Shown in pieces: positions 954-12,361 of a DNA stretch of 32,658 nucleotides. Source of the stretch: a virus. The notes under the pieces were generated by a model that ran no database searches, was not told where the DNA came from, and saw only the letters and a list, made by a program, of their open reading frames with translations. The position numbers and the translations under genes were made by a program. The stretch covers positions 1 through 32,658 of IMG/VR virus record IMGVR_UViG_3300028392_000199; one strand, written 5' to 3'. Each line of letters opens with the position of its first letter. The first letter of the stretch is position 1.

Positions 954-975
954 TGTTATTTCCCCTTGTTTACAG

Positions 976-1628: not shown

Positions 1629-1638
1629 GTCCCCTTAA

Positions 1639-1820: not shown

Positions 1821-1855
1821 GGGCTGTATTTGGCAGTTGCTACTTGTTAGGTGGA

Positions 1856-1976
1856 AAGCCGCAAAAACCCTAACTTACTGCATCCTACATTGGCGGCTTA
1901 ACGCCCTTAAATAAGGTGAGGCGGCAGGACTCCGTGATGTATGGTTGTGCAAAGGGGAAAGCACACCTACCGCCTC
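1856..1976. ncRNA. Structured non-coding region with an SD/anti-SD loop
   Basis: Two stems lie side by side: AAGCCGC (1856-1862) with GCGGCTT (1893-1899), and GAGGCGG (1918-1924) with CCGCCTC (1970-1976). Inside the second is a hairpin, GGTTGTGC (1943-1950) against GCACACC (1961-1967), with one bulged T and a ten-base loop AAAGGGGAAA (1951-1960). That loop is the exact extended Shine-Dalgarno sequence of several genes here; on the minus strand, the direction of the flanking genes, the loop would read TTTCCCCTTT, its complement. Nested GC-rich stems in an AT-rich genome suggest a conserved RNA. Strand and function unknown. Confidence 0.4.
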
Positions 1977-1981
1977 TTGAA

Positions 1982-2728
1982 TTAGTTTAACCCAGTTTTA
2001 AGTTTGTATATTTTCAGTAAAGACAAAAACATTTCGTAACCATCACGAATGGCTTGCTCCGTATGCTCATAGATAGCAACCTCACCAGTTTCACCATTAA
2101 TGTATACATTGGCGCATCGTGCTGTAGGGGCTAAAACCTCTCTGTAGGCTGCTAATTGTAGGGTATGCTCTAGGTAGGGTGTTAAATCACCAGGGGATTT
2201 TTCTGTCGTCTTAAAGTCAATTACTACCCCACCATGCTCGCCTTTTGCTTTGCAATATAAATCGCACTTACCGCCATAGCCTTCTTGATTAACTAGACTC
2301 TGTTCTGCAATCCATAACTGTGGCCCAAAATGAGCCGTGATAGCGTCATCTACTTTGCGGACATAGGTAGGCATCTCAGGTAGGTATTCTTGGTTGTAGA
2401 AGCTCTCTATAAAGTCATGTATAAGAGTTCCCCTAGTCATTGCTTCTTGGGATTTCCTCTTGGACAAGTCCATAACTCGGCTAATGTATTCTTTTTCCTC
2501 TTCACCTTCTTGGCGTGGATTTTCAGCAGCAGCTTTAATAGCCTCTGTTTGAAGCCATGTATTTAAACCATCTTTAGATAGCTGCCCATTGATAGTGGAC
2601 ACAGATGGCACTAAAGTACCAGGCGCTGCTTTAGCATCACGCAAGGTTACTGAGCGTTCCTTGCCGTTTTTACCAGTCATGGTGTAGCGTGGTGCGCCAG
2701 TTAAGGCGCAGTACCAATGTTGTGACAT
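1982..2728 (-). CDS. PD-(D/E)XK exonuclease (RecB/Cas4-like fold)
   Basis: 248 residues with the ordered motifs of a RecB-type nuclease: His in GTLIHDFIE (H104), Asp in YGGKCDLY (D156), D-x-K in VVIDFKTTEK (D171, K173), and the QLAAY motif at 191-195. These residues bind metal and cut DNA. In phages this nuclease usually resects double-stranded ends for a partner annealing protein, and the ERF gene lies three genes upstream in the same operon, so a two-component recombination role fits. The start is well marked by CAAAGGGGAAAAT before ATG. The gene is followed by a 353-nt structured non-coding stretch. Confidence 0.88.
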   Translation of the reverse strand: MSQHWYCALTGAPRYTMTGKNGKERSVTLRDAKAAPGTLVPSVSTINGQLSKDGLNTWLQTEAIKAAAENPRQEGEEEKEYISRVMDLSKRKSQEAMTRGTLIHDFIESFYNQEYLPEMPTYVRKVDDAITAHFGPQLWIAEQSLVNQEGYGGKCDLYCKAKGEHGGVVIDFKTTEKSPGDLTPYLEHTLQLAAYREVLAPTARCANVYINGETGEVAIYEHTEQAIRDGYEMFLSLLKIYKLKTGLN

Positions 2729-3625: not shown

Positions 3626-3821
3626 TTGCTCTCTCCTTTTTGCGAACTTCCCATAAAACTTCTTCTTGCGACATTAATTCATCGTGTTTTTGTTGAAGCA
3701 TAGCAATAGCATCTTCAAGAATGTCTATTTTTAAAACATAATTTTCAGATTCAAATTCATTTGTATATGTAATTTTTGTTTCGTCAGACACAAGCCAGCG
3801 AACATTAAAAGCATTAAGCAT
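3612..3821 (-). CDS. Hypothetical protein, 69 aa
   Basis: Begins MLNAFNVRWLVSDETKITYT and ends in a charged helical segment (LQQKHDELMSQEEVLWEVRK). The ATG at 3821 is chosen because GGAGG lies five bases before it; upstream in-frame starts run deep into the preceding gene. It overlaps the preceding gene by 8 bases and ERF by 14, typical of coupled early genes. The N-terminal half looks like a beta strand pair, the C-terminal half like a coiled coil. Function unknown. Confidence 0.65.
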   Translation of the reverse strand: MLNAFNVRWLVSDETKITYTNEFESENYVLKIDILEDAIAMLQQKHDELMSQEEVLWEVRKKERANATI

Positions 3822-4011
3822 GATTGCCTCCAAAGATGTTTCCAAAGTCGTCAAATACATCTTGTAACAATGTATTGCGTGTTGGTTTGCCACAGGCGGC
3901 ACGAATGACATCTACATCGTCTTGGTCTAGTTCTGTGCCAAATTCCATGTTGTTAAGCGCTATTTCTAAGCGCTCTTCCATTTCCAGCATAAGTTGGTTT
4001 AATTCACCCAT
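3814..4011 (-). CDS. Hypothetical acidic protein, 65 aa; first gene of leftward operon
   Basis: Begins MGELNQLMLEMEERLEIAL, a likely amphipathic helix, followed by DQDDVDVIRAACGKPTRN and an acidic end (VFDDFGNIFGGNHA). CAAGGGG precedes the ATG at 4011. It is the first gene after the leftward promoter at 4081-4053, with an untranslated leader of about 35 nt containing a palindrome. Function unknown; its position suggests it is made first after infection. Confidence 0.7.
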   Translation of the reverse strand: MGELNQLMLEMEERLEIALNNMEFGTELDQDDVDVIRAACGKPTRNTLLQDVFDDFGNIFGGNHA

Positions 4012-4030
4012 TTAAATCCCCTTGAATGGC

Positions 4031-4944: not shown

Positions 4945-5167
4945 CTTCCTATCTTGAGGCTCTAACGACATACCAGGGGATAGGATTAAAAGCGCTACTG
5001 GGGGTAATGGATGAAACAGCGCAATATCGGTGGCGAAGCTAGTGCCGATTCCATGAACGACTGGTGGGTAAGCGATTCCTCAATGGAAGAACTTTGAAGG
5101 CAACCTAGGTAGGCTAGGTTCGCTCAAACCTCTTGGAAGTGGTATTTAAACAACTAGGGATAAATAC
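4945..5167 (+). ncRNA. Candidate structured RNA, ~220 nt, multi-stem
   Basis: This gene-free stretch holds a series of short perfect stems: TCCTATC (4947-4953)/GATAGGA (4979-4985); TTGAGG (4954-4959)/CCTCAA (5078-5083); GCGCT (4992-4996)/AGCGC (5018-5022); ATCGG (5026-5030)/CCGAT (5045-5049), extendable by G-T pairs; TTCCAT (5049-5054)/ATGGAA (5083-5088); AACCTAG (5102-5108)/CTAGGTT (5114-5120); and GTATTTA (5142-5148)/TAAATAC (5161-5167). Some exclude one another, but most fit one nested fold. It is more GC-rich than flanking non-coding DNA. No ORF of note and no tRNA, tmRNA or RNase P hallmark. The plus strand is assumed from flanking genes. Confidence 0.4.
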
Positions 5168-5239
5168 TAATAGCCATAACTATAAATTAAGAAGAAACTA
5201 AAAAGACTCAATAACGAGTAAACATTTAAGGGGAATTAA

Positions 5240-5551
5240 ATGAAAGATATTTTAGGTGCTTGTTTATTAGGCGTTGTATTTGCAGCTATGTTTGTTTACG
5301 GCATACCTGCTAAAGCGCAAACTTATCCAATGACTAACGCTCAAGGCTATAACATGGGTACAGTACAAATAAACGGCAACACCGCACAGTTTGTAAACCC
5401 ACAAGGTTACACCACTCAGACTGCTACAATATATCCTAACCAAGTCGTAATCACGACACCAAATGGTTATACACAAAGCGTTGTTGGTAACACAGGCTAT
5501 ACAGTTCCATCTAGCCCACCAACACCTATGTCCCCTAGGGTAATGCAGTAG
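5240..5551 (+). CDS. Secreted repeat protein with 20-residue repeats
   Basis: 103 residues. Residues 1-26 are a clear signal peptide (MKDILGACLLGVVFAAMFVY then GIPAKA, cleavage before QT). The mature part holds three repeats of exactly 20 residues starting at positions 33, 53 and 73, each with N/T-x-Q/N-G-Y near its start (NAQGYNMGTVQ, NPQGYTTQTAT, TPNGYTQSVVG). The end is Pro-rich. Such strand-turn repeats suggest a small periplasmic or outer-surface beta structure. AAGGGGAAT gives a strong Shine-Dalgarno. Exported phage proteins of this kind may alter the host envelope or exclude other phages; function unknown. Confidence 0.8.
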   Translation: MKDILGACLLGVVFAAMFVYGIPAKAQTYPMTNAQGYNMGTVQINGNTAQFVNPQGYTTQTATIYPNQVVITTPNGYTQSVVGNTGYTVPSSPPTPMSPRVMQ

Positions 5552-5932: not shown

Positions 5933-6093
5933 GGTATTTATGTGCATTACGACATAAAAAAGGTTTAGCTTGGTTTCGTAAATACATTAGCGACAAAGAC
6001 TTTAGCGAAAAATTATTAACTGATTTTTTTAATCAGTACCAACTTGGCAATAAAGGGGAATGGGGAAAATGGATATTGAAAAATACATCGTAG
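5899..6093 (+). CDS. Hypothetical basic protein, 64 aa
   Basis: MYETARHQCAVRYLCALRHK and then WFRKYISDKDF, ending in NKGEWGKWILKNTS. The only in-frame start is the ATG at 5899, giving a 34-base overlap with the preceding gene; no good Shine-Dalgarno is seen, so translation is probably coupled. The R-x-x-C-x-V-R-Y pattern followed by a charged helix resembles small uncharacterised phage proteins of the DUF7696 kind; that similarity is weak. The next gene starts inside its last 25 bases. Confidence 0.5.
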   Translation: MYETARHQCAVRYLCALRHKKGLAWFRKYISDKDFSEKLLTDFFNQYQLGNKGEWGKWILKNTS

Positions 6094-7506: not shown

Positions 7507-7842
7507 GGGGTCAAACCCCAATTCAGACGAGATACGGTGCGCTCTACTACGAAACTCCTTATCGTGGTGAGTCCACTTGTTTGTTGTGTGACGGCTCATG
7601 TGGATACATTCGTGGCACAAAACACGAATCACCGTATCTAAATGACCACAACGAGCAGACGAAATAGTTATAGTGTGTTCAAAATCCTCGCCTGTATCGT
7701 AGGTATATGAACCCATAACTCCTGGGTCTTTATCTACAATAAATTCTATTTCTTCTGGTATCGGCATATTCCAACGAGCAAAAGGCTGCATACAATAGAT
7801 TGCAGAATATAAGTTTTGTAAGATTGCTGGTGTTAATTTCAT
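7495..7842 (-). CDS. SprT-like zinc metalloprotease
   Basis: 115 residues. HECIHMSRH (residues 77-85) is an H-E-x-x-H zinc site, followed by WTHHDKEFRSRAHRISSELG with a further His (92/93) in the place of the third ligand; this is the core of SprT/Spartan-type proteases. The N-terminal part (FIVDKDPGVMGSYTYDTGED, then HTITIS) is the usual beta framework. The family includes enzymes that degrade DNA-protein crosslinks; bacterial SprT is uncharacterised. No C-terminal zinc ribbon is present. Start overlaps the metallophosphoesterase stop as ATGA. Confidence 0.85.
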   Translation of the reverse strand: MKLTPAILQNLYSAIYCMQPFARWNMPIPEEIEFIVDKDPGVMGSYTYDTGEDFEHTITISSARCGHLDTVIRVLCHECIHMSRHTTNKWTHHDKEFRSRAHRISSELGFDPLEL

Positions 7843-8798
7843 ACTTGATGAATCTTTCCACGAAACTCTACTTCATCCTCGCCCCATACTCTAATCATTT
7901 CAGGCTGAAGCAATTTGCTGCGCTCAAATGAAAGCATTACAAAACCACTATTCCAGTCTTTAGGAGTGTCCTCTGTATAACTGAACTGTTGTCCATTAGG
8001 GTCAGCTAGTGTTCCTGTCTGAACGCCCCAGCGTGTGCCGTTATAGTCATTAAAAGGTATAGCACTAAGTACATGAGTATGACCTGTAATCATATTAACC
8101 CCTGAATTGACAGCATTATTTCTGCCGCCAGTCCAACCACCCTTCCAACGGTGCTTAACGCAAGTATCTTCATTGAGCCAAACACTCCAACATGGCAACC
8201 ACATAGGGAAATAGTCTTTAAGACTTGTGCCAGGTATACCTTCAAACGAAGGTAAGTTAGCCACAATGTTGGCTTCTAGTCTTTGGTCATGATTGCCCAT
8301 AGGGAAAAACAACTTAGCACCTACAGCAGTCGCCTCAATTTCGCCTAAATAATGCTGACAGGCTTCTAACTCTTCTTTCATTGTTGGCAACTTATTCCAA
8401 TCGGTGCGTGGAAAACGACTAATGGAAGCCCCATCTAGGGCATCTCCATTGCAAATAACCGCAGTTGGCTTGAACTCTTTAATCATTTCTATCAGCGCTT
8501 TGTAGGCTGTAGTAGTTTCGTCAGGCCAAAAGTGTGCGTCACTAAAGACTATCACTCGACCTTTTTCTATTTCCATACCCCTGCGTACATTGCCAGGAGT
8601 CTGTTGTGTTTTCTTTACATAAGCAGGGTTTTGGCTATTGAATGTATCTAAAATGATACCAAGCCTATTTTCTATAGACCTACGCCTAGCCATAACATTT
8701 CTAATGGCTATACCATTGACTTTGGAAAATTCGCTAGGACTACCAATCTTATTCCAAGACTCTATCCACTGCTCATCGGTTAAATGATACCCAGCCAT
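7839..8798 (-). CDS. Calcineurin-like metallophosphoesterase with N-terminal HTH
   Basis: 319 residues. Residues ~1-50 look like a DNA-binding helix-turn-helix (DEQWIESWNKIGSPSEFSKV, then AIRNVMARRRSIE). The catalytic part has all five metal motifs: FSDAH (85-89), NGDALDG (117-123), GNHD (168-171), KHRW (215-218) and TGHTH (238-242). Such enzymes hydrolyse phosphoesters or act as nucleases; the added HTH suggests a DNA substrate. Related proteins are common in phage early regions. AAGGGGAAT precedes the ATG. It is the first gene of a two-gene leftward unit with the SprT-like protease, divergent from the VRR-NUC gene by only 45 bases. Confidence 0.9.
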   Translation of the reverse strand: MAGYHLTDEQWIESWNKIGSPSEFSKVNGIAIRNVMARRRSIENRLGIILDTFNSQNPAYVKKTQQTPGNVRRGMEIEKGRVIVFSDAHFWPDETTTAYKALIEMIKEFKPTAVICNGDALDGASISRFPRTDWNKLPTMKEELEACQHYLGEIEATAVGAKLFFPMGNHDQRLEANIVANLPSFEGIPGTSLKDYFPMWLPCWSVWLNEDTCVKHRWKGGWTGGRNNAVNSGVNMITGHTHVLSAIPFNDYNGTRWGVQTGTLADPNGQQFSYTEDTPKDWNSGFVMLSFERSKLLQPEMIRVWGEDEVEFRGKIHQV

Positions 8799-8843
8799 TT
8801 GATTCCCCTTATACTATAAGTTTACAAACACTAACATAGAATT

Positions 8844-11719: not shown

Positions 11720-11884
11720 TTAAACCTCCTCCACGCTGTCAATATCCCATTCAAGCTCTGGCAGGTCATCCCATTCAAACTCTTGGTCTGACATTGTGAC
11801 CAGTCCAATAGCATCAGACTGGCTATCTGCCTCGATATTGATATATTCGTAGCTAGTACGCCTTGCGATTACACGATATAACAT
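11720..11884 (-). CDS. Small acidic protein, 54 aa
   Basis: ATG at 11884 preceded by AAAGGGGAAATACT, one of the best Shine-Dalgarno sites in the window. N-terminus MLYRVIARRTSYEYINIEAD reads as beta strands; the C-terminus is strongly acidic (SDQEFEWDDLPELEWDIDS). A DNA-mimic-like acidic tail is possible but speculative. Follows a small stem with a T-run that may limit its transcription. Confidence 0.65.
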   Translation of the reverse strand: MLYRVIARRTSYEYINIEADSQSDAIGLVTMSDQEFEWDDLPELEWDIDSVEEV

Positions 11885-11898
11885 AGTATTTCCCCTTT

Positions 11899-12021: not shown

Positions 12022-12336
12022 TTAAATCCATTCCTGTCTAAACTTCTTAGATGGAGAGAACCAATGATTGATGTTCTCTACTAAATGGAATCCCATATCC
12101 ATACCACAGCCTTTGACTACTAAGCCATTGTGTTTACCAATCTTTATACCTAATGCATTAGAGACAAGCCAATCTAATGAGATGATGCGACCTGCGTCAA
12201 TCATTCGTACGCTGATTTCTCTTTGCATGCCTGAACTGCTTACATGCCTAATAACTGTATAGATTGTGTCTGTTGGTATATCTTTTAGAATGTTTCCCAA
12301 CTCTTGTGCTGCTTCTGTTTTTACTGTGTTAGTCAT
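12022..12336 (-). CDS. Conserved phage protein of unknown function, 104 aa
   Basis: Recognisable as a common uncharacterised phage family: DTIYTVIRHVSSSGMQREIS (residues ~23-42), DWLVSNALG (55-63), then HNGLVVKGCGMDMGFHLVEN with a G-C-G-M-D-M-G-F-H core. The invariant-looking Cys, Asp and His may form an active or metal site. AAAGGGGAAAC precedes the ATG. First gene of the leftward small-gene operon, divergent from the late operon. Confidence 0.8.
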   Translation of the reverse strand: MTNTVKTEAAQELGNILKDIPTDTIYTVIRHVSSSGMQREISVRMIDAGRIISLDWLVSNALGIKIGKHNGLVVKGCGMDMGFHLVENINHWFSPSKKFRQEWI

Positions 12337-12361
12337 TTAAGTTTCCCCTTTGTTTGACTGT

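Follow-up and report, generated by a model that had tools for sequence, protein, structure and literature searches.

The early nuclease mRNA of a phage represented by IMG/VR record IMGVR_UViG_3300028392_000199 likely contains, in its 3' UTR, a small C4-like antisense RNA that represses the nuclease mRNA itself as well as a set of other early genes in trans. The window, i.e., the whole stretch of DNA analyzed here, comprises 32,658 nucleotides of this record. In the mechanism that we propose, the RNA would fold into three helices (P1, P2, and P3) which expose a single-stranded C-rich loop, and this loop would base-pair with the Shine-Dalgarno (SD) sequence of the nuclease and with those of a number of further phage mRNAs from the early, non-structural class. 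Such pairing would block 30S binding, so that the target genes would be lowered as a set after the RNA accumulates; late genes and genes with ordinary AGGAG SDs would be spared. Comparison of related sequences strongly supports the loop–SD pairing, and the RNA probably turns the early genes down as a group, because the loop and its sites change together between lineages. As the nuclease would be both the source and a target of the RNA, negative feedback would also be expected. The similar systems compared below all favor repression by covering of the SD.

The RNA is 59 nt long, lies on the minus strand (window 1976–1918), and begins 5 nt past the nuclease stop codon (table 1). It reads GAGGCGGUAGG-UGUGC-UUUCCCCUUU-GCACA-ACCAUACAUCACGGAGU-CCUGCCGCCUC and is followed by ACC. 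When ten flanking bases were added on each side, the minus-strand fold had a predicted free energy of -26.7 kcal/mol and a z-score of -4.2, and the plus-strand fold was less distinctive (z = -1.7). An initial annotation of this DNA had described a GAGGCGG/CCGCCTC stem holding an inner hairpin, the ten-base loop of which reads AAAGGGGAAA on the plus strand. The two arms of this stem (1918–1924 and 1970–1976) and the loop, closed by UGUGC/GCACA in the minus-strand reading, were indeed found in place. However, the outer stem is longer than had been described: on the minus strand it comprises 11 bp (10 Watson–Crick pairs and one U.G) and continues directly into the inner hairpin. No Rfam family matched the region 1640–1990 up to E = 5. 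The Rfam C4 covariance model was unmatched in this region of the window, and among the relatives nothing reached its gathering score. A tRNA or tRNA-like gene was ruled out: ARAGORN detected no tRNA in the window, and the 11-bp P1 of the window's subtype comes without a clear T-arm.

Table 1. Positions of the three-helix RNA, its host gene, the proposed target sites, and the neighboring RNA module (numbered from the first nucleotide of the window).
Feature	Position	Strand	Basis or remark
Three-helix RNA with conserved 3' ACC	1915–1976	-	Fold and z-score, covariation, position after nuclease stop
P1 helix	1976–1966 with 1928–1918	-	
P2 helix	1965–1961 with 1950–1946	-	
P3 region	1945–1929	-	
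ACC	1917–1915	-	
Apical loop UUUCCCCUUU (putative anti-SD)	1951–1960	-	Core invariant while P2 varies; changes jointly with SD in clades B and C
PD-(D/E)XK nuclease gene	1982–2728	-	PF12705 and PHROG exonuclease matches; 3' UTR carries the RNA, SD is a proposed target
Nuclease SD AAAGGGGAAA	2731–2740	-	10/10 complementary to loop
SD CAAGGGGAAA of small gene starting at 953	959–968	-	
SD core AAGGGGA of gene 1353–1628	1630–1636	-	
SD core AAGGGGA of gene 3814–4011, first in recombination operon	4017–4023	-	
SD core AAGGGGA of gene 5240–5551	5228–5234	+	Opposite strand
SD AAAGGGGAAT of small gene starting at 6060 or 6069	6052–6061	+	
SD core AAGGGGA of metallophosphoesterase gene 7839–8798	8804–8810	-	
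SD AAAGGGGAAA of gene 11720–11884	11889–11898	-	
SD AAAGGGGAAA of gene 12022–12336	12342–12351	-	
Module 2 (second conserved RNA, covarying pseudoknot, same 3' UTR)	1821–1906	-	At least 119 viral stretches; compensatory changes

Comparison of related phages demonstrates the fold and its strand. A first set of loci yielded 46 distinct variants of the RNA. P1 occurs as GAGGCGG/CCGCCUC, GAGGUGG/CCACCUC, GGGGGCG/CGCCCCC, GAGGCUG/CAGCCUC, and other versions, and P2 as UGUGC/GCACA, UUGGC/GCCAA, CUGGA/UCCAG, UGCGA/UCGCA, AGGCG/CGCCU, AGAUGG/CCAUCU, and others; the loop is constant as U(U/A)UCCCCUU across more than ten different P2 stems. The subtypes were aligned separately, as a covariance model that mixed them had 7 pairs and was of no use. 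In the alignment of the window's subtype (17 variants), all 318 of 318 cells of the 20 helix pairs can pair, both sides have changed at 7 of the 20 pairs, and 32 double-change cells were observed vs 9.8 in shuffles. When control alignments were slid, the paired share went down to 33–59%. The second subtype showed six double-change pairs and a similar pattern overall, also for the P3 hairpin GUCUG-UCCGUG-CAGAC. P3 is weak in the window's own subtype and strong in relatives; P1, P2, and P3 are all present. Thus, compensatory changes, which the initial annotation had suggested looking for in related phages, are found in the helices of both subtypes.

The helices also contain 28 G.U cells, each of which is possible solely on the minus strand, indicating that the RNA is the minus strand. 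A plus-strand RNA whose SD-like loop traps ribosomes had been put forward in addition, and the loop on that strand does have the sequence of the SD. On the other hand, the G.U pairs of the helices turn into A.C mismatches on the plus strand, and the module is fixed to the stop codon of the minus-strand nuclease gene. Sequestration of ribosomes by the plus strand was therefore left unsupported, and we find it hardly credible. The P3 loop (window 1945–1929 and relatives) is also kept while its stem varies, like the first loop. It is UCCGUG in one subtype and AUCACGGA in the other, each containing the complement of the other, and no partner for this loop was identified.

The location of the RNA was then compared among 80 close viral relatives of the nuclease. 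In 78 of them the RNA is directly 3' of the nuclease stop (one of these is cut by the contig end), and in the remaining two (L061 and L077) another gene intervenes and the RNA lies further downstream. Across 91 loci measured, P1 starts 3–9 nt past the nuclease stop, and ACC adjoins the 3' end of P1 in 80 of the 91, as measured without requiring ACC. The loop is found 5–31 nt from the nuclease stop region. The gap that separates the RNA from the stop codon could scarcely accommodate a promoter, so the simplest reading is that the RNA forms the 3' UTR of the mRNA that encodes the nuclease. The closing stem followed by ACC might allow excision by host RNase P, as with the C4 RNA of phage P1; this is a fair guess, because the conserved ACC matches the RCC that is bound by RNase P RNA (PMC12710915).

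That the RNA adjoins the stop codon in almost every relative would also suit a hairpin that merely protects or ends the nuclease mRNA (a 3' stabilizer, processing signal, or terminator), with the likeness of loop and SD due to chance or composition; in one relative (L184) an intrinsic terminator even replaces the hairpin. However, there is no U-run 3' of the stem, and it is the loop that is conserved and the stem that is free to vary. In addition, loop and SD change jointly in three lineages and are lost jointly in a fourth (see below). We therefore regard a simple mRNA-end hairpin as very improbable.

The covariation of the loop with the nuclease SD is the central evidence for an antisense RNA. 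Clade A combines the loop UCCCCUU with the nuclease SD AAGGGGA, and AAGGGGA is present upstream of the nuclease in 80/80 close relatives, among variable surrounding bases. In clade B the loop is CCCCCUA and the SD UAGGGGG (L194–L198: loop UUACCCCCUAG, SD AUAGGGGGA). Clade C has the loop UCCCCCGA and the SD UCGGGGGA (L084 and L200–L208: loop UUCCCCCGAU, SD UUCGGGGGAA), with 9/9 positions complementary in L084. In clade N the C-rich loop is missing, the nuclease lacks a G-run SD, and module 2 is kept; at the place of the C-rich loop there is another hairpin, another module, or a terminator. One member of this clade, L167, keeps the P1-P2-P3 architecture, with the loop ACAAAAU and the SD AAGGAUC. 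In the nuclease tree, A, B, C, and N are each monophyletic and each on one side of a branch, and at least three changes of the loop/SD state are needed, all of them concordant; three independent changes are few, and for the nuclease taken by itself this small number is what chiefly limits the argument from covariation. Covariation beyond the core was considered for UAUCCCC loops and rejected: their outer position is matched in the SD in L027/L028 only and mostly unmatched elsewhere, suggesting that the constraint is limited to a core of 7–8 nt. Thus, the loop does track the SD in related phages, as the initial annotation had asked whether it would. Its broader proposal, that the minus-strand loop pairs with early-gene leaders, gains support from this joint change and from the compensation in the stems; taken with the plus-strand idea, its interpretation is supported in part.

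A joint change might also result if a DNA- or RNA-binding phage protein reads AAGGGGA (or the form of its lineage) and the loop is an extra binding site, with no RNA–RNA pairing. On DNA, loop and SD are one motif in opposite orientations, so that a change in specificity would alter both. Such a protein appears improbable to us, considering that the motif occurs at SD spacing and in SD orientation, that it always lies in the loop of an RNA with covarying stems and G.U pairs of one strand, and that the loop of the RNA strand shows the complement rather than the motif.

In the window, exact AAAGGGGAAA occurs four times (three SDs and the complement of the loop) vs 0.11 expected, and no shuffle reached 4. 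The ten-base motif had been named as the SD of three genes, all of which were verified (the nuclease gene and the genes starting at 11884 and 12336). Near-matches had been listed before 953, 1628, 4011, 5240, and 8798; these five are all real, but the list missed one before the small gene at 6060/6069. The core AAGGGGA, counted on both strands, has 12 occurrences: nine SDs, the loop, and two elsewhere. Because the targets 5240 and 6060 are on the opposite strand and hence not in the transcript of the RNA, pairing with them would have to occur in trans.

To define the gene set, we compared 31 related phage records (whole or large fragments) and the window. Before start codons, clade A (576 kb) has 107 aGGGGa and clade N (135 kb) a single one. 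Clade B has 11 aGGGGGa and one aGGGGa in this position, and clade C has eight cGGGGGa. G-run SDs precede 82/710 non-structural genes of clade A vs 0/266 genes homologous to structural genes of the window (P = 2e-12). In clade N, 1/161 non-structural genes has such an SD, again compared with 82/710 (P = 7.5e-7). Gene starts were called by a script favouring starts behind an SD, in the same way for all clades and gene classes, and phages within a clade are related, so these counts are not independent events. The safer numbers are the switch between clades, the comparison of orthologues, and a test with one gene per family. For the gene that opens the recombination operon, 8/8 clade A orthologues show AAGGGGA, and those of clades B, C, and N an AGGA-type SD. 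Orthologues of the window gene 5240 have AAGGGGA in 13/15 clade A cases and an AAGGAG-type SD in clade N. With one gene per family and the nuclease excluded, AGGGG was found in 23/25 for clade A vs 1/6 for clade B (P = 7e-4). Non-homologous genes bear the SD form of their own clade, and the large number of unrelated small genes among the carriers speaks for acquisition on several occasions. In clade C, targets beyond the nuclease are few; counting by gene gave a single ERF gene.

These data bear on whether the loop pairs with the SD of its own nuclease alone, the 5' and 3' UTRs being joined as in icaR, and the other SDs have another cause. The nuclease is a target in nearly all phages of clades A, B, and C, and icaR (UCCCCUG vs UAGGGGG) provides a mechanistic precedent. 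However, each clade A phage has about four further genes with the same SD, some of them on the opposite strand; this SD is absent from clade N, and the other genes of clade B also have UAGGGGG. Action in cis alone is thus unlikely, though it is the most serious of the alternatives, and the RNA would more probably act in trans as well.

Predicted pairing energies suggest how the set might be distinguished. The nuclease SD of the window is predicted to pair with its own loop at -14.0 kcal/mol vs -8.0 kcal/mol with the 16S tail, and the loop–SD pairing of clade C is predicted to reach -17.8 kcal/mol. For two late-gene SDs the order is reversed (loop, -5.5 and -5.3 kcal/mol; 16S, -8.2 and -8.9 kcal/mol). 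Considering these energies, the variant SD may set the gene group apart from ordinary SDs, with the ribosome still binding through G.U. The target SDs (AAGGGGA; UAGGGGG or CGGGGGA elsewhere) would then pair with 16S rRNA by G.U wobble and with the loop in full. This would amount to a private SD code, in which the host ribosome reads the early-gene variant by wobble and the phage's own 3'-UTR RNA reads it perfectly, a hypothesis to which we give an even chance. With such a code, one RNA could shut off the whole set and leave host and late genes untouched, and the lineages would have altered it (AAGGGGA, UAGGGGG, CGGGGGA) jointly in loop and targets.

If true, these phages would possess an RNA-based switch of translation whose regulator coevolves with its targets in the manner of a readable code. 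Such a switch would show how early and late protein synthesis can be separated without a repressor protein. The three natural, mutually distinct loop–SD pairs offer test material for ribosome binding versus riboregulation. Among freshwater phages the RNA is common, and Rfam does not contain it.

Other RNAs were observed in the same 3' UTR. Module 2 (GGGC-GUU-AAGCCGC...GCAGU..UGGGU...GCGGCUU...ACCCA...ACUGC...GCCC) directly follows the first RNA, with which it probably shares a transcript, and is kept in phages without the C-rich hairpin. It belongs to no Rfam family, and no copy turned up among genomes from 84,980 species of bacteria and archaea. The nuclease, sought in the same collection, gave one match only, on a metagenome-assembled contig; the phages are therefore probably not common prophages. 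In L041, L054, L082, L107, L167, L174, and others, a third module is located between the nuclease stop and module 2. It consists of stem-GAAAG...(A/G)AGUA-stem followed by ACC (e.g., UGACCGAAAGUGUAAAGAAACGAGUAGGUCACC), with variable inserts and closing stem; its GAA/AGUA pair resembles a loop-E motif, and some loci have two copies in tandem. A tRNA-Asn(GTT)-like gene occurs between the first and second modules in L068, L069, and L098, so that RNAs ending in ACC or CCA seem to accumulate in this 3' UTR.

Rfam family RF02932 (Betaproteobacteria-1 RNA) was detected at window 4946–5069 (+), preceding gene 5240, whose SD is a proposed target, and also in L084, L098, L167, L196, and L198. Its presence in phages of all four clades implies that this family is also a phage RNA, and it points weakly to freshwater betaproteobacteria as hosts. 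The terminase is 44% identical to those of a Rhodoferax phage and a Methylophilales phage and 43% identical to those of Pelagibacter phages. In a collinear distant relative, MW202674 (L270), the leader AUAUAGGUGAA or AAAGGUGAAA is repeated before several early genes (starts 1661, 2923, 4464, and 5503), and a G/C-rich fold follows its nuclease. This leader is possibly another version of the code; no convincing loop complementary to it was found in MW202674.

The initial annotation had stated that no phage RNA of this design was known. A search of the open-access literature likewise turned up no comparable anti-SD RNA described for the 3' UTR of a phage gene; nevertheless, the design has precedents in the icaR 3' UTR, in sX13 and RNAIII, and in C4 RNA. 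In the icaR mRNA of Staphylococcus aureus, UCCCCUG of the 3' UTR pairs with the transcript's own SD, UAGGGGG; the pairing impedes ribosomes and makes the mRNA accessible to RNase III (PMC3868564). Both systems set a C-rich 3'-UTR motif against the SD of the same mRNA, as found for the nuclease in clades A, B, and C, but icaR is one cellular gene with no conserved folded module or multi-gene SD set, and no variation of motif and SD between lineages is reported for it. C4 RNA of phages P1 and P7 has helices P1, P2, and P3, is cut from a longer transcript by RNase P, and covers ribosome-binding sites of phage mRNA with its loop (PMC5320573, PMC12197685). The RNA described here likewise has three helices and a loop complementary to phage ribosome-binding sites. 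Rfam does not class it as a C4 RNA, though we propose that it works like C4 and the icaR 3' UTR. C4 serves prophage immunity and has a neighboring target, whereas the present RNA, with no Rfam match and no sign of lysogeny, would have many targets scattered among early genes. Finally, sX13 of Xanthomonas and the UCCCC-loop RNAs of Staphylococcus, such as RNAIII, have C-rich apical loops (CCCC, CCCCC) that repress in trans mRNAs with GGGG near the start codon (PMC3771888). The phage RNA similarly combines a C-rich apical loop with a G-rich motif at several mRNA starts; however, sX13 and RNAIII are stand-alone cellular RNAs with several loops, whereas the phage RNA has a single loop, placed in a 3' UTR, and SDs that coevolve with it.
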